From NCBI GenBank assembly GCA_944324075.1, contig CALUUZ010000020.1, positions 1-51,722 on the forward strand: DNA of 51,722 nucleotides. The letters are read 5' to 3'. This stretch comes from Candidatus Mailhella excrementigallinarum (lineage in GTDB: Bacteria; Desulfobacterota; Desulfovibrionia; Desulfovibrionales; Desulfovibrionaceae). The notes under the pieces were generated by a model. That model was given only the letters and a program-made list of their open reading frames with translations, did not search any database and was not told the DNA's origin. This document shows, one piece after another, positions 356 to 50,570 of this stretch (positions are counted from its first letter, which is position 1; each line of letters starts with the position of its first letter). Made by a program: the position numbers and the translations under genes.

Positions 356-540
356 TACAGGCATTTTCAGGGTGAATATGCTCCCGGAGCCGGGCAGAGC
401 GGGATTACTCCGCGGTGCTCCCTGATATCCGAAGCCGCCGCGCTTCGCTTGCGAGGTCAGGCTCCGGCCTCGGGCATGAATGCTGCGGATCAGGGCACAC
501 GGTTCTGGCGGGCAGATATTTTCAAGAGCAAAACGCTCTA
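356..540 (+). repeat. Family A structured repeat, copy 1
   Basis: Diverged full-length copy. It ends in the typical ...AGATATTTTCAAGAGCAAAACGCTCTA block at 511-540 (terminal GCTCTA) and begins near a TACAGGCATTTTC stretch. The central part is rearranged compared with copy 19746-19918. It lies directly upstream of the sensor kinase ribosome binding site, so it is probably transcribed as leader or sits over the promoter. Confidence 0.7.
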
Positions 541-5909: not shown

Positions 5910-7298
5910 CTACTTTCTTGCGTACTCAAGCGAATACTTGTCCTGCACCGCAGGCAGCGGCGTGGGATAACAGCCGTCAAAACAGGCGGTGCAGTACTGA
6001 TCCGGGCAGGACACGCTGCGTTTCAGGCCTTCCAGCGAAAGATAGTGCAGCGAATCAAGCCCCAGCAGCGCGGCCAGTTCTTCCGGCCCGTGCTGCACTG
6101 CCACCAGTTCCCTGGTGGAAGGAAAGTCGATGCCGTAAAAGCAGCCATGCCTGATGGGCGGGCAGCTCACGCGAAAATGCACTTCCTTTGCTCCCATGTC
6201 CCGCAGCTTGGCCACACGGGTCCGCACGGTGGTACCGCGCACAATGGAGTCGTCCACCACGAAGAGCCGCTTGCCCTCGATCATGGAATGCACGGGGTTG
6301 ATCTTCACGCGCACGCTGAACTGACGCATGCTCTGGGAAGGCTGGATGAACGTCCGCCCCACGTAGTGATTGCGGATAAGCGCATGCTCATAAGGCACAC
6401 CCGCGCCCTGAGCCACACCCAGAGAGGCATAGACGCCCGAATCCGGAAAGGGAATCACGCAGTCCACATCGGCGGGAGCTTCCTTCACCAGTTCCAGCCC
6501 CATGCGCTTGCGGCACTGGTACACATCCTCTCCGAAAATGACGGAATCGGGCCGGGCGAAGTAAACCAGCTCGAAAATGCACTGACGCACGGGCGCGCTC
6601 TTGCGCAGGGCGAAACTCCTGTATTCCAGGGCCCCGTGTTCGATGACCACCATCTCGCCGGGCCGCACGCCGCGCAGACGTTCGGCTTCCAGCAGATCAA
6701 AGGCGCAGCTTTCGGAGGCGAATACCCAGGCGTCGCCCAGGCGTCCCATGACCAGAGGGTGGAACCCGTGCGGGTCACGCACGGCAATGAGTTTGCCGCC
6801 GGCCTGAATCATCAGGCAGTATGCGCCTTCCACCCGGTCGCACGCGGACAGGATGGCCTCTTCCAGACTCATGTCCTTCAGGCAGTGGGAAATGAGATGC
6901 AGAAAAATCTCGCTGTCGCTGGTGGTCTGAAAAATGGCCCCGGCGTCTTCCAGTTCGGCGCGAAGCTCCGCCGCATTGGTCAGATTGCCATTGTGCGCAA
7001 GAGAAAGCTGCATGCCGCCCCGCATGCGCACCGTCAGCGGCTGGGCATTGCGCGGTTCGGGCCTTCCGGTGGTGGAATAGCGCACATGCCCCACGGATAC
7101 GTCTCCCGGCAGATGCACGAGAACTTCCTCGGTAAATACATCGGGCACCAGCCCCATGCCCACATGACTGTGGATCTCGCCATCCGCCCACGTGGCTATG
7201 CCCGCGCTTTCCTGTCCGCGATGCTGGAGGGCGTAAAGACCGAAATAGGCCAGACGGGCCGCTTCCTCATGTCCGCTGATGCCGAAAATGCCGCACAT
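5910..7298 (-). CDS. purF: Amidophosphoribosyltransferase PurF
   Basis: Catalyses the first step of purine synthesis, PRPP plus glutamine to phosphoribosylamine, in the cytoplasm. The 462 residues begin MCGIFGISG, so Cys2 becomes the N-terminal glutaminase nucleophile after Met removal, without a long propeptide. The PRPP loop VVDDSIVRGTTVRT is intact. Cysteines in QCIFELVYFARPDS, GCFYGID and CTACFDGCYP match the positions that hold a 4Fe-4S cluster in the Bacillus-type enzyme, so this is likely the oxygen-sensitive Fe-S form (family knowledge plus inference). The start is supported by AGGACATGCT before ATG. The gene is followed by uvrC and preceded by the MFS gene on the same strand. Confidence 0.97.
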   Translation of the reverse strand: MCGIFGISGHEEAARLAYFGLYALQHRGQESAGIATWADGEIHSHVGMGLVPDVFTEEVLVHLPGDVSVGHVRYSTTGRPEPRNAQPLTVRMRGGMQLSLAHNGNLTNAAELRAELEDAGAIFQTTSDSEIFLHLISHCLKDMSLEEAILSACDRVEGAYCLMIQAGGKLIAVRDPHGFHPLVMGRLGDAWVFASESCAFDLLEAERLRGVRPGEMVVIEHGALEYRSFALRKSAPVRQCIFELVYFARPDSVIFGEDVYQCRKRMGLELVKEAPADVDCVIPFPDSGVYASLGVAQGAGVPYEHALIRNHYVGRTFIQPSQSMRQFSVRVKINPVHSMIEGKRLFVVDDSIVRGTTVRTRVAKLRDMGAKEVHFRVSCPPIRHGCFYGIDFPSTRELVAVQHGPEELAALLGLDSLHYLSLEGLKRSVSCPDQYCTACFDGCYPTPLPAVQDKYSLEYARK

Positions 7299-8635: not shown

Positions 8636-8694
8636 GCAGAGGCGGATCTCGCCCCGCCCGACTCCGCAGAGCATTTCAAGGGCGAAATGTTCTA
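8636..8694 (-). repeat. Family A repeat fragment, copy 2
   Basis: Only one end is kept: the GACTCCGC arm and the hairpin GAGCATTTC-N6-GAAATGTTC. The terminal TTCTA (read TAGAA on the minus strand) supplies the TAG stop of the NYN gene at 8692-8694. In an RNA copy the hairpin would follow the stop codon at once. Confidence 0.65.
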
Positions 8695-9411
8695 ACCCTC
8701 CACAACGTCTTCCACGGAAGGATAGGGATCATATTCCTTGGGATCGTCAAAGATATGCACGCCGTTGGGATAATTGGCGTGCTGCGGGCGGGGCAGCTTG
8801 TTCACCACATAGTCCACATGCTCGCGCAGATCTTCCGCCGCGCGGGTCCACAGGGGGTCCAGCGCAACCTTGATGCCTTCACGCCGCACCAGCTTCACCG
8901 CGGGCACATAGTCCGCGTCGTTGGCCAGCAGCACCACGCGCTCCGCCTGCCTTTTGAAGGCAATGGTGGCAAAATCGAGGCCGAGGCGCATATCCACGCC
9001 CTTCTGCCGTATATCCGGATAAATGTCCCGGCTTTCAATATCTTCCACGTCAATTTCTCCGGCCATGAGCTCGCCCAGCTTGTTGGAATCAAGCTGCCAC
9101 TGACCGGCCTGCCAGGCGGACCGGCCAAGGCGCAGCGCGACTTCGGGCGTGGCCCTCAGGCTCTGAAGGAACTGCTGCTTGCGGGCAACCAGCGGTGTCT
9201 GGGAAAAGTCGACCGGACCGTCCAGAGGATGCTCTCCCCTGCCGGTGAACGGCATGGCATCATAAAAAAGAATGCGGCTGACGCATTCGTTCGGCCCCAG
9301 ATGAGCGAGGCAGTGCCGCCGGATGCCCGGGCCGTCGAAATAGAACGCTTTGAGAGTGATGATGCGCTTGCGCATGAACTCGCCATCAACGACGAAAATA
9401 ACACGATCCAT
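8692..9411 (-). CDS. NYN domain (LabA/DUF88, PIN-like) protein
   Basis: A predicted cytoplasmic PIN-like ribonuclease of the NYN/DUF88 family, 239 residues. Family marks are the N-terminal VIFVVDGEFMRKR strand with an early Asp, the central KGVDMRLGLDFATIAFK stretch, and VVLLANDADYVPAVKLVRREG, which supply acidic metal-binding residues. Substrate is unknown. The start at 9411 follows GCAGG with 5-base spacing; an ATG at 9423 has a weaker site. The stop codon TAG lies within the end of a family A repeat fragment. It is divergent from hisS across about 600 bases. Confidence 0.85.
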   Translation of the reverse strand: MDRVIFVVDGEFMRKRIITLKAFYFDGPGIRRHCLAHLGPNECVSRILFYDAMPFTGRGEHPLDGPVDFSQTPLVARKQQFLQSLRATPEVALRLGRSAWQAGQWQLDSNKLGELMAGEIDVEDIESRDIYPDIRQKGVDMRLGLDFATIAFKRQAERVVLLANDADYVPAVKLVRREGIKVALDPLWTRAAEDLREHVDYVVNKLPRPQHANYPNGVHIFDDPKEYDPYPSVEDVVEG

Positions 9412-13864: not shown

Positions 13865-14752
13865 ATGGATATCAAGCGACTGGAATACTTCTGCGCCATC
13901 ATTGAAAAGGGTCAGATAGGCAAGGCCGCGCAATCCCTCCATATCTCCCAGCCTCCTCTCAGCATGCGCCTCAGAGAGCTGGAGGAGGAGCTGGGCGTCA
14001 CTCTCATCCACCGCCGGGGCAAAGCCTGGCAGATTACTCCGGAAGGCCAGCTGCTCTATCAGAAAGCCCAGTTCATACTTTCCTACATGGAGGGCGTGAA
14101 AAACGATGTCTCCAGCCTTTCCGGCACGTTGCAGGGACTGGTCAGAATCGGCGTCTGCCCGCCATGCCGCCGCATGGCTTCCCGGGTCTTTTCCGGGCTG
14201 GCCCATGAGCATCCGCGGCTGCGTTTCCGGGTATGGGTCATGGACAACCAGTCTCTGGAACGGCACCTCCAGGAAAGTCACCTTGACTTCGCTCTGCTTC
14301 TCCTGCCCGTAAAGGGAACAAACTATGCCATCCGTACCCTGCGCCCCTTGCCGTATTACGCGGTCTTCGGGCAGGGCCTGACGGCCCCGGAAAAAGACCA
14401 TATCGGCGTGGAGGAACTGGTCGGTGTGCCGCTCATGGCCCAGCACCGGCGCGATGACGAGGCCGGAGTCAATACTGTGCTGCGGCGCGCCTTCCAGACC
14501 ATCGGACACCAGCCGCGCTTCGCGCTGGAAACCCAAGACTCCGGTTTTCTGCAAAGCCTGCTGCTGGACGGATTCCCGGCTGTGGGCATTCTGAATGAAC
14601 ACGAAATCCGCAGCGGCGGGCTGGAAGCCTTCCCTTCCGTCCGGCTGGACGTGGAGGGACTTTCCCTGACGCCCGCCGCCATCACGCTGAAACAGGCCTA
14701 TGTTTCCATGGCTGCGCAGCGCATTATTGAAAAATTTACCGAAATATTCTAG
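13865..14752 (+). CDS. LysR family transcriptional regulator
   Basis: A 295-residue LysR-type regulator. The winged helix-turn-helix is at the N-terminus (RLEYFCAIIEKGQIGKAAQSL, then SQPPLSMRLRELEEELGV), followed by an effector-binding domain from about residue 90. The start at 13865 follows GAGGA with 7-base spacing. It is convergent with the TRAP transporter operon, not divergent as is typical, so the link to that operon is possible but unproven. Its TAG stop (14750-14752) is formed by the end of a truncated family A repeat, so the last residues may have been altered by insertion; the length is normal for the family. Confidence 0.92.
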   Translation: MDIKRLEYFCAIIEKGQIGKAAQSLHISQPPLSMRLRELEEELGVTLIHRRGKAWQITPEGQLLYQKAQFILSYMEGVKNDVSSLSGTLQGLVRIGVCPPCRRMASRVFSGLAHEHPRLRFRVWVMDNQSLERHLQESHLDFALLLLPVKGTNYAIRTLRPLPYYAVFGQGLTAPEKDHIGVEELVGVPLMAQHRRDDEAGVNTVLRRAFQTIGHQPRFALETQDSGFLQSLLLDGFPAVGILNEHEIRSGGLEAFPSVRLDVEGLSLTPAAITLKQAYVSMAAQRIIEKFTEIF

Positions 14753-14835
14753 AGCGTTTTGTATTTGAAAATATCTGCCGGCCAGACACTGTGTTCCGGC
14801 TCGCAGGTTTCACGCCGCCACCGGAGCTTAACGCC
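14750..14835 (-). repeat. Family A repeat, truncated copy 3 between convergent genes
   Basis: Starts TAGAGCGTTTTG, continues with GAAAATATCTGCCGGCC, the ACACTGTGTTCCGG hairpin and GGTTTCACGCCGCC, then stops near GGAGCTTAACGCCGC. The TAG at its left end is the lysR stop codon, and the TTA inside GGAGCTTAACG is the TAA stop of the TRAP permease on the other strand. The whole gap between these two genes is therefore repeat sequence. Confidence 0.75.
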
Positions 14836-16771
14836 GCCCGGCGCTGCCCGGCATCTCCCTTTTCCGCGCGGCAAGCTGTCCGGACAGCACCAGCCCGAAC
14901 AGGACGAATCCGGCGATATCAGCCCGGAAGTCAGGCCAGATGAACACCATGCCCGCCGCGATCAGCAGCAGTCTGGCCCGGCGGCCGAGCCTGCCGCACA
15001 GCCAGCCTTCCAGCCCGCCGGCGAAACTGAATATGCCGAGAAAGCTGACAAGCGCGGCATAGATGATTTCCGGCGCACTGCCGTCAAGAATGAGCGCCGG
15101 GCGGTACATGAACACAAACGGCACAAGATAGGCCGCCACGGAGAGCTTCACCGCCTCTGCGCCGGTGGAATTGGGGTTGCCTTCCGATATGCCGGCCGCG
15201 GCATAGGCCGCCACGGCCACGGGCGGCGTGATGGCGGAAATGGCGGAAAAATACACGATGAACAGATGCGAACTCATCAGCGAAAACCCGAATTCCAGCA
15301 GAGCGGGAGCGGCCAGCGTGGCGGTCAGCACATAGGCGGCGGGCACGGGCATGCCCATGCCGAGGATGATGCACACCAGCGCGACCATGACCAGACACAG
15401 TCCACTGAAGCCGCCCGTGGCGGCGAAAACAAGACTCGTGAACTTGCCGCCAAGCCCGGTGAGCATGATGCCGCCGATTACCAGTCCCGCCGCAGCCGAG
15501 GCGTTGGCCACGGTCAGGATGCCGCCGCCGGTGCGGCGCAGCGCCTCGCAGATTTCCCGCAGTCCCATGCGATGCCCTGGAATGAACCAGCTTACGACGA
15601 CAGTGGCCGCCGTAGCCGCAAGTCCCACTACAGTGGGATTGACCCGACGGGTGATCAGCCAGACCAGAACGGCGATGGGAACAAGGTAAAGCCAGTTTTC
15701 CCTGAGTACCGTGCGGGCTTTTTCCTGCCTGTGCCGAGGATCGTCGGAAAGGGGCCGCATGCCCGTGATGACGGAACGATCATGCACCTGCACCATGATC
15801 CCGAAATAGAACAGAATGGAGGGAATGACGGCGGCCAGAGCGATTTCCAGATAGGGAATGCCCGCCACGTCCACCATGAGAAAGGCGGCCGTGCCCATGA
15901 TGGGCGGCATGAGCGAGGCTCCGGCGCAGGCAGACGCGGAAACAGCGCCGGAAAAGTCTGCTCCGTAGCCGAGACGCTTCATCAGCGGGATGGTGATGCT
16001 GCCCGTGGTCACCACATCGGAAACCGGAGACCCGGAAAGCGTGCCGTACAGCGCGGAAGCGATGACACTGATTTTGGCGGGACCGCCGCGCATGCGTCCG
16101 GCAATGGACGCGGCGAGGCGGAAAAAGAAGTTGCCGCCGCCCGCCGCGTTGAACACCTGCCCGAACAGCACGAACATGAAGACATAGGTACAGGCCACGC
16201 CCACAGGCGTGCCGAGGATACCGTCATAGGTATAGGCCATGCGGTCAAGAAAAACCTCCAGCGATGCGCCGCGGTGCCCGAAATAGCCGGGCAGATACGG
16301 TCCGGCAAAGCTGTAGGCAACGAACACGAGGATAATGCCCAGCAGCACCGGCCCCACGGTACGGCGCGTCACTTCCAGCACCAGTAGCACCAGCGCGGCG
16401 GTGACGGCCCGGTCCATGGGAAGAAGCGGATCCACTCCCGTCCAGCGATCAACAATATCCTTGCCGTTCAGGGCGAACCATACGCCGAGGAGAAGACTTG
16501 CGCACGCCAGAATGATGTCGGGAAGAGGAACCTTTTCCTCCGCTCCGCGCGGAGCGGAGGAAAAGAAGGGGGTGTAGCAGAGAAAGGTCAGCGAAAGGGC
16601 AAACGCGACAAAGACGCCGCGCAGGATGAAGGAATCGACAAAACCGAAGGGCGCGCCGTATATTTCCACAGCGGCGAACAGAAAAAGCAGCGCTCCCGTG
16701 ATCTTCGTCCAGAACGGATTCAGCTTTCTGCGCCGCCCCTCCTCGAACAGTCGTGACAGAACGGGAAACAT
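14828..16771 (-). CDS. TRAP transporter fused permease (DctQM type)
   Basis: A 647-residue integral membrane protein, the fused small (4-helix) and large (12-helix) permease of a TAXI-type TRAP transporter, driving solute uptake with an ion gradient. Conserved blocks of the large subunit are visible: FGQVFNAAGGG, ASALYGTLSGSPVSDVVTTG and SACAGASLMPPIMGTAAFLM. The start at 16771 follows GAGGAGGAATCC; frames open further upstream but lack support. The binding protein gene lies 97 bases upstream. A perfect 34-bp palindrome lies in the coding sequence at 16532-16565. Its stop falls in a family A repeat fragment. Substrate is unknown; related systems take C4/C5 acids or amino acids. Confidence 0.93.
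   Translation of the reverse strand: MFPVLSRLFEEGRRRKLNPFWTKITGALLFLFAAVEIYGAPFGFVDSFILRGVFVAFALSLTFLCYTPFFSSAPRGAEEKVPLPDIILACASLLLGVWFALNGKDIVDRWTGVDPLLPMDRAVTAALVLLVLEVTRRTVGPVLLGIILVFVAYSFAGPYLPGYFGHRGASLEVFLDRMAYTYDGILGTPVGVACTYVFMFVLFGQVFNAAGGGNFFFRLAASIAGRMRGGPAKISVIASALYGTLSGSPVSDVVTTGSITIPLMKRLGYGADFSGAVSASACAGASLMPPIMGTAAFLMVDVAGIPYLEIALAAVIPSILFYFGIMVQVHDRSVITGMRPLSDDPRHRQEKARTVLRENWLYLVPIAVLVWLITRRVNPTVVGLAATAATVVVSWFIPGHRMGLREICEALRRTGGGILTVANASAAAGLVIGGIMLTGLGGKFTSLVFAATGGFSGLCLVMVALVCIILGMGMPVPAAYVLTATLAAPALLEFGFSLMSSHLFIVYFSAISAITPPVAVAAYAAAGISEGNPNSTGAEAVKLSVAAYLVPFVFMYRPALILDGSAPEIIYAALVSFLGIFSFAGGLEGWLCGRLGRRARLLLIAAGMVFIWPDFRADIAGFVLFGLVLSGQLAARKREMPGSAGRR
16532..16565. 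repeat. Perfect 34-bp palindrome inside the TRAP permease gene
   Basis: Two 17-base arms (16532-16548 and 16549-16565) are exact reverse complements with no spacer, built around CCTCCGCTCCGC/GCGGAGCGGAGG. They encode about residues 69-80, in the hydrophilic loop FFSSAPRGAEEK between early membrane helices. The mRNA could fold into a very stable hairpin early in the gene. Confidence 0.9.
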
Positions 16772-17876: not shown

Positions 17877-18006
17877 TAAAGCGTTTTGCTTTCGAAGATC
17901 TCTGCGGGCCAGACCCTGTGTTCAGGCCCGCAGGTTTCACGCCTCCGGCGTCGCGGCTTCAGTCTCGCCCCGCTCGACTGAAGGAGAGCATTTCGCTAAT
18001 GCTCTA
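17877..18006 (-). repeat. Family A repeat, copy 4 (130 bp, internal deletion)
   Basis: Runs from TAAAGCGTTTTGC to GCTCTA. It keeps the AGATCTCTGCGGGCCAGACCCTGTGTTCAGGCCCGCAGG hairpin region at about 17897-17936, the CTTCAGTC...GACTGAAG arm pair and the terminal GAGCATTTCGCTAATGCTC hairpin, but lacks the GCCGCAAGTGAATTGCGGC segment. The final CTA at 18004-18006 is the TAG stop codon of the DASS transporter. Confidence 0.85.
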
Positions 18007-19476: not shown

Positions 19477-19745
19477 ATCCTTCCTCCTATCCGGGGAATT
19501 CCCCGGACAAATCCTGTTCTTCATGCCGCGCCGCCTCCGCATGACGACGCGGCTCTCCTGAAGCGTTCCGCGATGAAGTCCCGCCCTGTCCGACTCCGCG
19601 GAGCGCTTCAATGGTGAAATGCCCTCAGACTACAGACCATGCTCTGCGGTATCTGCGCCGTCCAGGCCGTAAAGCGTCTTGATGGAAAGGCCCGAAAATC
19701 AGTCGCTTACGGCGCGGTGCCTTCAGCCGTTGGCGCAAAGCGCCT

Positions 19746-19918
19746 TAGAGCATTTCGCTTATGAAATGCTCCACTTCAGTCGAGCGGGGCGAGACTGAAG
19801 CCGCGCCGCAGGAGCAGCCGCAATTCACTTGCGGCGTACAGCTCCGGCGGCGGCGTGAGACCTGCGGGTCAGAACACGGGGTCTGGTCGGCAGATATTTT
19901 CAAGAGCAAAACGCTCTA
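19746..19918 (+). repeat. Family A repeat, copy 5 (best-preserved reference copy)
   Basis: 173 bp from TAGAGC to GCTCTA. Terminal inverted repeats TAGAGCATTTCGCT and TAGAGCGTTTTGCT (right end, inverted) match at 12 of 14 positions. Inside, in order: hairpin GAGCATTTC/GAAATGCTC, arm pair CTTCAGTC/GACTGAAG, GGAGC...GCTCC enclosing GCCGCAA-N5-TTGCGGC, a GGTCAGAACACGGGGTCTGG hairpin, and AGATATTTTCAAGAGCAAAA. No coding capacity is seen. The TA at each end suggests a TA target duplication, as in MITEs of the IS630/Tc1 class (inference). Confidence 0.9.
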
Positions 19919-19965
19919 CGGATGAAAAGCGCAGATATGAGCCGCAACCTGCTCCTTATTTTCGG

Positions 19966-19988
19966 GGCTGCTGACTTTGTCAGCAGCC
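19966..19988 (-). terminator. Hairpin directly after the GltD-like stop codon
   Basis: A perfect 10-bp stem GGCTGCTGAC/GTCAGCAGCC with a 3-base loop abuts the stop codon. On the transcribed strand it is not followed by a U-run (the next bases are CCGAAAATAAGG), so it may stabilise the mRNA end or act with Rho rather than terminate on its own. Confidence 0.5.
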
Positions 19989-23683: not shown

Positions 23684-23806
23684 GGGATTTTCAAAATGAA
23701 CATGCTCCCGGAACCGGGCGGAGCAAGGTCCGGCATCAGGCGTGAAACCTGCGGGCCGGAAAGCAGGGTTCTGCTCGGCGGCGACTTTCGATCACAACAT
23801 TCTTCA
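23684..23806 (+). repeat. Family A repeat, diverged copy 6
   Basis: Shows TTTTCAAAATGAACATGCTCCCGGAACC, then GGCGTGAAACCTGCGGGCC and AGCAGGGTTCTGCTCGG, in the same order as other copies, but the terminal motifs have decayed and the GCCGCAAGTGAATTGCGGC segment is missing. It lies just upstream of fmt. Confidence 0.55.
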
Positions 23807-27573: not shown

Positions 27574-27578
27574 TTTTT

Positions 27579-27750
27579 CAATCCATCGCCGCCCCATCCG
27601 CCGACTGATTCCGCAGCCGACGGACAGGGGGCGTGCGGATGTCCTTCCGGAAAGGAGGAGCTGCAAAAAGGGATTTCATCGGCTTTGCCGTTTTGGCAAG
27701 TCCATTTTCCCCCTGAAGGGGGGAGCCTTCAAACCATAAAGGAATTTTTA
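27579..27750 (+). repeat. Family B repeat, copy 1
   Basis: Begins CAATCCATCGCC and includes CGACTGATTCCGCAGCCGACG, then GACAGGGGG, GGATTTCATCGGCTTTGCCG, a CCCCTGAAGGGG hairpin and AAACCATAAAGGAATTTTTA. It matches copy 2 closely over its whole length and sits between the metY start codon and a family A copy. Confidence 0.85.
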
Positions 27751-27918
27751 GAGCATTTTCGTTTTGAAAATGCTCCCGGAGTCAAGCGAAGCGAGACTCC
27801 GCCGCGACATCGGAGCAGCCGCAATTGACTTGCGGCGTCAAGCTCCGATGGAGGCGTGAAACCTGCAAGCCAAAAACAAAGCCCTGGCCGGTAGATACGT
27901 TAATGGCAAAATGCTCTG
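27749..27918 (+). repeat. Family A repeat, copy 7
   Basis: 170 bp from TAGAGCATTTTCG to GCAAAATGCTCTG, with the first hairpin (GAGCATTTTC/GAAAATGCTC), GCCGCAATTGACTTGCGGC and the GGAGGCGTGAAACCTGC block. It directly follows family B copy 1, and 72 bases later family B copy 2 begins. Confidence 0.85.
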
Positions 27919-27990
27919 CTGAAGCTTCTCCCTCCGGAACTGTTCCAGGCATGTCATCACCTTGTGTTCTGTTCCGCATGCCGAATGTTT

Positions 27991-28165
27991 CAATCCACAG
28001 TCGCCCTATCCGGCGACTGACTGAAGCAGCCGACGGACAGGGGTCGTGCGCATTGCCCCTCCCTGAAGGGAGGGGTTACGAAAAAGGATTTCATCGGCTT
28101 CGCCGTCTTGTCAACTCCTCTTTTTCCCCTGAAGGGGAAGGTCTCAAACCACAAAGGAATTTTTG
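27991..28165 (+). repeat. Family B repeat, copy 2
   Basis: Direct repeat of copy 1: CAATCCACAGTCGCC, CGACTGACTGAAGCAGCCGACG, a CCCCTCCCTGAAGGGAGGGG hairpin, GGATTTCATCGGCTTCGCCG, a TTCCCCTGAAGGGGAA hairpin and AAACCACAAAGGAATTTTTG. It ends 13 bases before the metA stop codon. On the minus strand the hairpins might end metA transcripts. Confidence 0.85.
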
Positions 28166-28178
28166 ATGAAATATCATG

Positions 28179-32673: not shown

Positions 32674-32715
32674 AGCGTAACCGTATACAACAAACTATTC
32701 TGAACAGATCTGTTT

Positions 32716-32942
32716 GGAACATTTCATGAGTGAAATGCTTCTACGGAGTCGAGCGAAGTGAGAATCATCTCTGCACTCCTTATCCGTAAAGCTCTTCGCG
32801 CTGAGCGCCAAAGGCGACGCCCCCCTTTTTCTTCCGGTGTCGCCGCAAGTGAATTGCGGCGTATAGCTCCGGTTTCAGGTGTGAAACCTCCAGATGGGAC
32901 ACAGAATCCGGCCGACAGATACTTTCAGATATAAAACACTCC
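32716..32942 (+). repeat. Family A repeat, copy 8, with unrelated insert
   Basis: The left part (GGAACATTTCATGAGTGAAATGC, GGAGTCGAGCGAAGTGAGA) and right part (GCCGCAAGTGAATTGCGGC, GGTGTGAAACC, GACACAGAATCCGGCCGACAGATACTTTCAG) of family A flank about 90 bases of other sequence near 32764-32842. The copy is diverged at both ends. Confidence 0.6.
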
Positions 32943-33299
32943 AAAAAGAAAAGGAGGATTGTCTTGACCGCCGGAGGCATGTCACATCGGCAGCGCACGG
33001 AACGACGACTTTCCTGTCGCATGGCAGCAATACGACAGGTCTTCTGTAGTCCGCTCAGCGCGAAGTTTTGGATATCGAAAGCAGAAACACGGCTCAAACG
33101 CAATGTCACATGAAGAGATGCTTTTAAGCAACAAAGCTGCACAAAGGCACCAGCAAGCTGCGGATATATATTATTCTCATACACATGGAGATATAGGCTG
33201 CCTTTAAGACAACCAATATTACTTGCCTGCACGGCCCCGTGCCTCTTGAGCAGTTTCTAACCGAAACTTTAAATAGATCCTTCTGAAAAGTGAGGCAGG

Positions 33300-33353: not shown

Positions 33354-33380
33354 TTGCTGAGTCTTTCTTCCACTCTTCCG

Positions 33381-33591
33381 TTTTATGATTGAAAATATCT
33401 GCCAGCCGGACCTTGTATTCTGACTCAAAGATTTCACGCTGGAGAAGGAGAATATGACACTCCGTGCCCCCTTCATGCCGCGTAACCATGCGGGGGGGGG
33501 AGCGTCGCTCCATAGCTCGCTGCGCCCACGCCTTCGGCGGTCAAGGTTATGTTCAACACTATTCTGGAACAGAGCCGACAAAAATGCTCTA
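33381..33591 (-). repeat. Family A repeat, diverged copy 9
   Basis: The left end keeps GAAAATATCTGCCAGCC, TTGTATTCTGACTC and AGATTTCACG; the middle is replaced by unrelated sequence including a G9 tract; the right end AAAATGCTCTA supplies the TAG stop codon of the second response regulator at 33589-33591. Confidence 0.55.
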
Positions 33592-40452: not shown

Positions 40453-40634
40453 GGCAGAGAGCTTCAGAGCGGCTCCGCCTTGAAGTTGCTCCCGAAGTCA
40501 GGCAGAACGCGACTTCGCCGCGAGGCAGGAGCAGCCGCAGTTCACTTGCGGCGTAACGCTCCGGCTTCCGCCGTGAAACCTGCCGGTCAGACCCTGTGTT
40601 CTGACCGGCAGATATTTTCAAGAGCAAAATGTTC
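40453..40634 (+). repeat. Family A repeat, copy 10
   Basis: Right two thirds are well kept: GGAGCAGCCGCAGTTCACTTGCGGC region at about 40527-40552, GCCGTGAAACCTGCCGGTCAG, the GGTCAGACCCTGTGTTCTGACC hairpin and AGATATTTTCAAGAGCAAAATG. The left end is rearranged. It separates the TPR lipoprotein gene from the CGGC gene. Confidence 0.75.
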
Positions 40635-40665
40635 CGGGACAGGAGAAGCGGAGATGAGGCCCTGC

Positions 40666-48207: not shown

Positions 48208-48334
48208 CAATCCGCAGTCCCCCCCATCCTCCGACTGACTTCACAGCACGACGGAGAGGAATCCCGCGTATCGCCCCTCCCCGGAGGGGGAGGCTGTGAA
48301 AACAGGATTTCATCGGCTTTGCCGTCTTGTCAAG
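48208..48334 (+). repeat. Family B repeat, copy 3
   Basis: CAATCCGCAGTCC, CCGACTGACTTCACAGCACGACGG, a CCCCTCCCCGGAGGGGGAGG hairpin and AGGATTTCATCGGCTTTGCCG, then CTTGTCAA. It shares the order of copies 1 and 2 but lacks their last third. It lies between the unknown gene and gdhA. Confidence 0.75.
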
Positions 48335-50162: not shown

Positions 50163-50271
50163 TTAATTCCATGCTTGCTTCTGATTTCCACAGGTCGGCT
50201 GCACTCAGAACAGACACGGTTCCTGTGAAAACCTCACTCATTGTGTCTCTCACGCGACGAATCCTGAAGCG

Positions 50272-50435
50272 TACAGCATTTGAAAATATCTGCGGGCCAG
50301 AACACAGGGTTCTGACCCGCCGGCTTCACGCCGCCGGAGCTATACGCCGCAAGTGAACTGCGGCTACTCCAGCGGTGCGGCTTCAGTCTTGCCTCGCTCG
50401 GTTGAAGTAGAGCATTTCATAAGCAAAATGCTCCA
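50272..50435 (-). repeat. Family A repeat, copy 11
   Basis: 164 bp from TACAGCATTTG to AAAATGCTCCA. It keeps AAAATATCTGCGGGCC, the AGAACACAGGGTTCTGACCC hairpin, GCCGCAAGTGAACTGCGGC, GGCTTCAGTC...GGTTGAAG and the GAGCATTTCATAAGC end. It marks the left edge of the AT-rich GNAT island. Confidence 0.85.
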
Positions 50436-50570
50436 GTAACTGGTTTTATGAACAAAAACTTTAGATCAAGTTAACTCAAAAATAAAACAATCCTCTGGAT
50501 GATGCATAAAACTTGCGACATTTAACATGATATCATGCTATGATAATATTCAAATAATATGCTTTCATAT

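Follow-up and report, generated by a model that had tools for sequence, protein, structure and literature searches.

A probable non-autonomous mobile element with nested palindromes, dispersed between the genes of a Mailhella-like bacterium

A short repeat that is scattered between the genes of a Mailhella-like bacterium, here called family A, is in our view a non-autonomous mobile element with a MITE/REPIN-like organisation and one branch of a superfamily of the Desulfovibrionaceae; we give this reading a probability of about 75%. A preliminary description of the window, i.e., of the whole stretch of 51,722 bp analysed here, had proposed that the repeat is MITE-like, i.e., mobile but non-autonomous, dispersed and bounded by inverted ends, and this part of it is supported by the number of copies, by their absence from orthologous places in the nearest genome (0/17 conserved) and by related empty sites. 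The result is a dense intergenic mobile repeat whose internal structure is kept across genera and which none of the transposase families tested explains.

RESULTS

Family A copies in the window and in the genome

The window is the entire contig C20 of the host genome, G000 (3,709,134 bp in 51 contigs). Its hisS has an uncultured Mailhella sp. as best named match (74% identity), with other named matches at 66% at most, and we therefore take the host to be Mailhella-like. It was searched with an nhmmer profile built from 26 oriented genome copies (E ≤ 1e-3). Fifteen raw matches were obtained, which merged to 12, three of the raw matches being a listed copy read on the opposite strand; all eleven copies named in the preliminary description were recovered. 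The top match, and the reference for all that follows, is the full-length copy of 173 bp at 19746..19918 on the plus strand (copy 19746), which has YR-GAGC...GCTC-YR ends, here with TA/TA. Two further full-length copies lie at 27748..27918 (plus) and 50265..50436 (minus). A long copy of 229 bp occupies 32714..32943 (plus), another lies upstream of a histidine kinase gene (362..540, plus), one is internally shortened (17877..18006, minus), and one has no counterpart at the orthologous place in the nearest genome (40463..40639 with a second profile, 40480-40637 with the first; plus). Right-half copies were found between convergent genes (14749..14837, minus) and upstream of fmt (23725..23805, plus), and the remainder are a partial copy (33379..33450, minus), a partial left-end fragment (8647..8695, minus) and an extra, twelfth match, which is a weak fragment (19569..19625, minus; E = 7.9e-5). 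These profile matches confirm that copies occur in both orientations and decay to fragments.

Family A is by no means confined to the window. The profile found 181 copies in 1,251,722 bp, or 34% of the genome, and none in the reversed sequence, with an uneven density (C1, 71; C2, 53; C3, 30; C5, 15; window, 12). The genome total of ~540 (about 536) is extrapolated from this 34%, because the whole-genome searches scored part of the first-look candidates (40 of 416, and 19 per genome in the covariance model search). A narrower sample of 851,722 bp (400 kb of C1, 400 kb of C2 and the window) gave 138 merged matches, again with none in the same sequence reversed. Family A makes up 2.2% of the sampled DNA, at ~1 copy per 7 kb. 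The family A pattern GCCGCAANTSANTTGCGGC has 125 exact matches in G000; one pattern searched in viral contigs gave 0 exact matches, and no match was obtained in plasmids.

Anatomy of an element

The 83 copies with both ends are 127 to 233 bp long (median, 181), contain no open stretch of more than 77 codons and are without a transposase gene; their GC content is 0.589, compared with 0.590 in the sampled genome. As single-stranded DNA, copy 19746 gave a fold with z = -6.4, and 0 of 200 shuffled sequences were equally stable. The fold runs from a left terminal hairpin over a second hairpin and a nested central palindrome to a fourth hairpin, all given here on the plus strand. The left terminal hairpin, GAGCATTTCGCTTATGAAATGCTC (19748..19771), was delimited by the fold and by position weights, and the second, CTTCAGTC...GACTGAAG (19774..19800), which reads GGAGTC...GACTCC in other copies, by the fold and alignments. 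The nested central palindrome (19802..19855; fold and covariance model R1, see below) consists of an outer stem and the central hairpin GCCGCAA-TTCAC-TTGCGGC (19817..19835), the latter located by exact matches of GCCGCAANTSANTTGCGGC. It is followed by the fourth hairpin, CTGCGGGTC...GGTCGGCAG (19862..19893; fold), and by the right end, GATATTTTCAAGAGCAAAACGCTCTA (19893..19918), which position weights identify as an inverted relative of the left end.

The ends are inverted relatives in the family as well: the left end reads TAGAGCATTTCGCT..TGAAATGCTC and the right end, reversed, TAGAGCGTTTTGCT..TGAAAATATCTGC. Terminal inverted repeats with YRGAGCRTTTYGCTNNTGAAA at both ends are seen in 60 two-ended copies, a set chosen for having this motif, and the position weights outside the selection likewise agree. 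The left end is a hairpin in many copies (uninterrupted stem of at least 7 pairs in 35/83) and the right end mostly is not (at least 4 pairs in 12/83). Modules are swapped among copies; there is a longer central module with CCCCTTCTCCGGTGT, the second hairpin occurs in two forms, and other central inserts are present in the elements of G006, the nearest genome. RNAalifold, applied to an alignment of 36 copies, gave a poor structure because variants of the left hairpin misalign.

Borders and related empty sites

According to the preliminary description, the best copies have TA at both borders. This is true for part of the copies; overall, the border is YR. The left border dinucleotide of the 83 two-ended copies is CA in 23, TG in 21, TA in 19, CG in 6 and GA in 6, and the right one is TG in 25, TA in 24, CA in 16 and CG in 8, which makes YR the left border in 69/83 and the right border in 73/83. 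The base outside is a pyrimidine on the left in 69/83 and a purine on the right in 69/83.

The flanks of each two-ended copy were then joined and matched against the genome sample. Empty sites, whose comparison had been recommended, were indeed found as related sites in repeats, with a single dinucleotide that is mostly YR rather than TA. Copy 19746 interrupts a repeat whose left part (19687..19745, plus) and right part (19919..19971, plus), when joined, match uninterrupted copies at C1:185601-185715, C1:307646-307591 and C1:39988-40045. The empty sites read GCGCCT-TG-CGGATG, GCGGGT-TA-CGGATG and GCGCTT-TG-CGGATG, the filled site GCGCCT-TA-GAGC...GCTC-TA-CGGATG. Since the related empty sites hold one dinucleotide and the filled site holds two, a filled site equals an empty site plus one dinucleotide. 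Copy C5:118214 (CA...CT when filled) interrupts a repeat with 28 uninterrupted copies, CGACGGA-NN-GGGGG, in which NN is CA in 16, GA in 7, TA in 3, TG in 1 and CG in 1. Copy C3:213994 shares with copy 19746 the kind of host module and the dinucleotide at which it lies (TA...TA versus TG). Its single relative has a 5-base gap close by too, the aligner having drawn one 7-base gap, so that this copy would fit a gain of one dinucleotide in our own reading and is not a clean case. The loop of a hairpin in another repeat, which has 26 junction-spanning matches, holds copy C1:225926, with borders that are not clean. Junction-spanning matches of C1:106791, C1:334795 and C2:338474 were set aside as self-matches and those of C1:84925 and C2:396293 because there was one weak partner each. 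The host repeats are 72 to 92% identical, and, with 3 to 28 uninterrupted copies, they offer ready-made empty sites that make the insertion chemistry tractable.

The two border dinucleotides of a copy are identical in 18/83 cases (17.0 expected from shuffling) and complementary in 26/83 (17.4 expected; 1.7% of 5000 shuffles got as high). Identical pairs are no more frequent than after shuffling and complementary ones somewhat more frequent, which is not what a simple target duplication would predict. In the outer flanks of 60 copies, a fixed target site duplication of 2 to 12 bp gave no clear excess (largest, about 1.8 sd). Palindromic flanks were also looked for: 3 of 20 positions had z > 2, one was below -2 and the rest were at chance level.

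A second dispersed repeat, family B, consists of GATTTCATCGGCTTTGCCGTCTTGTCAA and a CCTCCCC..GGGGGA hairpin and has more than 20 copies in the sample; in the window it lies at 27576-27749, 27987-28168 and 48275-48333. Family B repeats hold inserted family A copies.

Comparison with the nearest genome

The nearest genome is G006, with a gyrA that is 94% identical; the other 16 matched at 80 to 85%. Synteny with the G006 sample (384,961 bp of contigs, picked because family copies are present there) extended over about 99 kb with a mean identity of 78.7% (about 79%) in this single comparison genome. Two findings had been named as refuting the preliminary description, namely a lack of further copies in the genome, or each copy being conserved at the same position in distant relatives without empty sites; it withstood both tests. 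Among the 17 family A copies for which both flanks were located in G006, in 13 separate intervals, not one had a copy at the orthologous place, and the sole G006 copy that could be located in G000 is absent there. Several intervals lack about the length of one element in G006: 244 versus 42 bp at C1:66911, 291 versus 79 bp at C2:168591 and 242 versus 19 bp at the window copy 40463-40639. Four of the 13 intervals are as long or longer in G006 (429/446, 298/534, 946/2779 and 539/1578 bp, G000/G006) and therefore document the absence of a copy, no clean empty site. The flanks in the two genomes are too diverged for base-exact borders. Taken from these sequence comparisons, family A elements can be regarded as mobile and dispersed.

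The identity between nearest neighbours among the family A copies has a median of 83.7%, and most copies are therefore old. Two pairs with different flanks are at least 90% identical, one at 97.0% (1.5 kb apart) and one at 94.7%.

Pairing in the stems

In a sister family, A2, base pairs predicted on both strands were Watson-Crick at a fraction of 0.859, compared with 0.749 (sd 0.006) when partners were shuffled; in family A, the values were 0.819 and 0.801 (sd 0.0045; maximum of 200 shuffles, 0.815), the shuffling of partners ignoring relatedness among copies. The central hairpin of A2 has a perfect 7-bp stem in 83/92 distinct copies, with six stem sequences and GTGAA or near loops; this count takes the best hairpin per copy and so favours pairing. 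The A2 stems carry compensatory changes around a near-constant loop. In family A, the central stem is perfect in 48/79 copies (about 36 expected from independent decay), and left stems of at least 8 pairs reach 0.398 versus 0.318 shuffled, a value that shuffled stems also attain (maximum, 0.422). The evidence that stems are maintained within family A is weak. For pairs common to both strands, the G-T and C-A cells were 75/58 and 118/89, and the lack of a consistent strand preference speaks for palindromes at the DNA level. When folds were optimised for one strand, G-T exceeded C-A on either strand.

The pairing might be a by-product of replication template switching (quasi-palindrome correction) and not a product of selection, an alternative that we hold to be rather unlikely. 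PMC8794818 describes template switching as a source of compensatory changes, and one case from our own sample is in line with this. A TonB/ExbD/ExbB operon was recently duplicated over 1.95 kb (L147:14951-16896 and C2:195785-197750 [L148]). In the gene part, there is 1 difference among 1780 aligned bp. The edge of the duplication lies in a family A element, in which the differences form one compact patch; CGGCGGAGTC within that patch repeats, exactly and in inverted form, the GACTCCGCCG that lies further upstream in this copy. As judged from this patch, template switching or gene conversion could keep stems paired without selection. This is, however, a single duplication in which the ancestral copy is not proven, and gene conversion from an unscored copy could give the patch as well: the best near-full-length partner was 86% identical and shorter ones were up to 88% identical, with 40 of 152 candidates scored.

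A wider superfamily and the sister family A2

The pattern GCCGCAANTSANTTGCGGC was found in one of 149 other genomes of an order-wide sample, G063, which belongs to another genus and has it three times. A search of relatives with a covariance model, as had been proposed, extended this considerably. The core model R1 (21 sequences, 16 of them from G000; training sources G000, G006 and G063) had matches in 18/199 genomes of the family and in 6/44 genera at E ≤ 1e-4, with 19 candidates scored per genome. Matches were strong in the three training sources, with four copies at 92 to 111 bits in G063, and weak (31 to 40 bits) elsewhere; those in G156, G039, G208 and the g46 genomes were weak and mostly multi-copy. 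A search of 20 named loci of Desulfovibrionales and others with R1 gave 0 matches at E ≤ 0.05.

Nineteen loci of the weak matches and one more locus of G063 were read for a common plan, which runs from a TAGAGC hairpin over a GC-rich second hairpin and a nested palindrome of the form CGCAA (or CGAAA)-loop-TTGCG (or TTTCG) to a right end that closes with GCTCTA or near. The plan is present at both loci of G156, one of G039, both of G208 and 7/11 of g46; it is partial in three g46 loci, and G176 (g46) has the central hairpin without the ends. It was not seen at the loci read from G161 and G012, and one G039 locus (L267) could not be placed. The genera with the plan are g1, g14, g31, g46 and g56, i.e., four besides that of the host, and G063 carries several of its subfamilies. 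From genus to genus, plan and core are kept, and the termini drift.

From here one may go further and let the nested-palindrome core (the outer stem and CGCAA-loop-TTGCG or compensated versions of it), not classical terminal repeats, set the transposing unit. Family A would then belong to an old Desulfovibrionaceae superfamily of mobile hairpin DNA, its core would be recognised as folded single-stranded DNA or RNA, termini and transposase would be replaceable, and A2 would in part of the genus be a tandem one-strand array in one part of the chromosome. We regard this extension as unlikely.

A2 was found in G008, G010, G015, G017 and G018 and sparsely in others. Its unit has the central 30 bp in common with family A at up to 100% identity, and its ends differ. 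In G018, 50 A2 copies (46 plus, 4 minus) were counted in 10/12 sampled 20-kb stretches of the region from 240 to 680 kb, as against none in 18 sampled stretches elsewhere, some stretches having been chosen for known copies. Tandem A2 arrays with a spacing of about 148 or 296 bp, nearly all on one strand, are present at L224-L231, L309 and L310 (G018 C1:240001-680000).

Placement relative to genes, and Y1 transposases

Copies had been described as lying only between genes. Indeed, 1 of 138 family A matches shares more than 30 bp with a called gene, the calls being those of our own codon-usage caller. The neighbouring genes are convergent for 32 of the 134 placeable matches, tandem for 91 and divergent for 11. 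Among gaps of at least 50 bp, a copy is held by 29/58 convergent, 78/296 tandem and 10/67 divergent ones; as an element adds to the length of the gap that holds it, these figures give a tendency and not a rate. Copies in tandem gaps lie at a median of 60 bp from the stop of the upstream gene and 133 bp from the start of the downstream gene. Family A copies avoid genes and favour 3' ends, and they show no preferred orientation to neighbouring genes (49 same, 42 opposite).

This placement, in convergent and tandem gaps with few in divergent ones, is like that of REPs as given in passages of PMC3733652, and it raises the question of a REPIN-like element that a Y1 (RAYT/IS200-type) transposase would move in the form of single-stranded hairpins. 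The inverted, often self-palindromic end would suit such an element, and so would the foldable spacer that lies between inverted ends and shows compensatory changes, an arrangement which parts of PMC3116915 report for REPINs. Y1_Tnp has matches in 15/19 genus genomes, with nine matches in G000. Five of these genes were read (two on C30, and those at C2:348604, on C18 and on C3). Four have PDHxH and one has VDHIH, which we take to be IS200. No REP-associated transposase (RAYT) was recognised among the five, the other matches being fragments. Next to three Y1 matches there is a family fragment on one side, at 145 bp (C41), 431 bp (second C30 gene) and 146 bp (C2:348604; weak, E = 0.004), which is unsurprising at ~1 copy per 7 kb, and family ends on both sides of a Y1 gene were found in none of seven regions scanned. 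The Y1 genes read look like ordinary IS200 with other ends, those at C2:348604 and on C30 having hairpins of their own. Of the tags that stand beside REP palindromes, GTAG or CGTC, GTAG was counted at the left end, where it precedes the hairpin in 2/83 copies. The REP/BIME likeness noted before is apt for placement and folding; movement by a Y1 enzyme in the manner of REPINs seems doubtful to us.

Two distinct IS200-type transposase genes stand in tandem at L167:1-1600 (G000 C30), with their own hairpins around them.

Search for other mobilising enzymes

The preliminary description had attributed the copies to an IS630/Tc1-type transposase, and classical MITEs of this type would carry a TA target duplication. 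Inverted ends of about 21 bp, a length below 300 bp and a gain of 2 bp at the related empty sites, with TA/TA in two of three, are what such elements would show. However, none of the 19 genus genomes searched (11 with a completeness of 90% or more) gave a PF13358 (DDE_3) match, in a search that was positive in 3/14 control genomes; TA is found at 19/83 left and 24/83 right borders, with CA and TG about as frequent; the empty sites show TG, TA, CA or GA; and no longer transposon with these ends was recognised in the parts searched. The attribution is not supported, and we consider an IS630/Tc1-type MITE very unlikely.

Other transposases were searched for as well. PF01609 (DDE_Tnp_1) had no match in G000; it had matches at E ≤ 1e-3 in the 8 other element-bearing genomes searched, 7 of which were over the cut-off. 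The 12 loci fetched gave six terminal inverted repeats; none equals the element ends, and one begins TAGAGG. At one G039 locus, a family-type element lies about 150 bp outside the IS, and one G156 match, close to the end of a contig, has an R1 match at a distance of about 80 bp. For rve, G000 gave one sub-threshold match (E = 2.7e-4; C44:8785-8955). It lies between two complete family A copies of the same orientation, 785 bp apart (L004:1501-2638, G000 C44:8245-9382), and looks like a decayed IS remnant, the arrangement being coincidence or a composite.

A full transposon sharing the ends, for which a search had been advised, was not recognised in the parts searched (851,722 bp, and G063). Facing family A ends formed 45 pairs at 290 to 5542 bp without a peak in the 851,722 bp, where end distances alone were examined, as expected from neighbouring copies. 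No multi-copy transposase gene was found in the same sample, and G063 had no facing end pairs between 217 bp and 17 kb.

DISCUSSION

We file family A neither as an IS630 MITE nor as a REP, because it fails two defining tests of the former and one of the latter; in the broad sense, it is a MITE without a recognised parent. As a non-autonomous mobile element, it would have two inverted ends (YR-GAGCRTTTYGCTNNTGAAA), the left one often a hairpin as well, that enclose two to three further palindromes. It would insert at a dinucleotide, usually YR, and leave two dinucleotides, mostly outside genes and near 3' ends. An enzyme provided in trans would recognise the hairpin ends and perhaps the nested core. 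This enzyme is presumably not of the IS630 type; candidates are a hairpin-recognising (HUH/Y1-like) enzyme or a DDE transposase that duplicates 2 bp, either resident or since lost. What preserves the palindromes may be a requirement for movement or their continued repair by replication template switching. With its conserved core and variable stems, the element lends itself to testing whether folded DNA serves as a transposition signal or whether template switching is what maintains perfect palindromes.

IS630/Tc1-type MITEs such as RUP have inverted ends, a small size and a 2-bp gain. Family A differs from them in having YR rather than TA and in the lack of an IS630 match in the genus genomes searched. 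Bacterial MITEs such as Correia, ERIC (711 copies in Photorhabdus) and Chunjie are, in the passages of PMC10969869 that treat them, likewise short, gene-free and intergenic, with inverted ends, many copies, decayed fragments and stem-loops. Compared with these, family A has no recognised parent IS and a YR border in place of a fixed duplication, its nested palindromes are conserved across genera while the ends diverge, and it is not AT-rich. With REPINs and REPs that have a RAYT, as portrayed in parts of PMC3116915 and PMC3733652, it shares the extragenic location, the inverted palindromic ends, the foldable spacer and subfamilies with alternative complementary stem residues. The family A unit is about 180 bp and not 20 to 40 bp, as in REP, and has neither a GTAG tag nor a recognised RAYT. 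Among the matches listed in a search of the open-access literature there was no paper on such repeats in Mailhella or Desulfovibrio, and PMC2267715 gave no hit for Desulfovibrio, Dvu, Bdellovibrio or Geobacter.

That family A is a structured RNA (a 3'-UTR element or small RNA) with copies kept for function is hardly credible: the stable fold of copy 19746, the well-paired A2 stems and the excess of G-T on either strand in strand-optimised folds would agree with it, but the copies are not conserved in position and have no preferred orientation to neighbouring genes, and the G-T and C-A cells are not far apart on both-strand pairs. Also, Rfam 15 gave 0 matches in the window at the gathering score and, in two A2-bearing stretches, a tRNA alone. 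In the window, ARAGORN called a tRNA-Ile (TAT) of 94 nt at 6330-6423 (minus strand); as it falls within purF, whose coding sequence spans 5910-7298 on this strand, it is mentioned here as a probable false positive.
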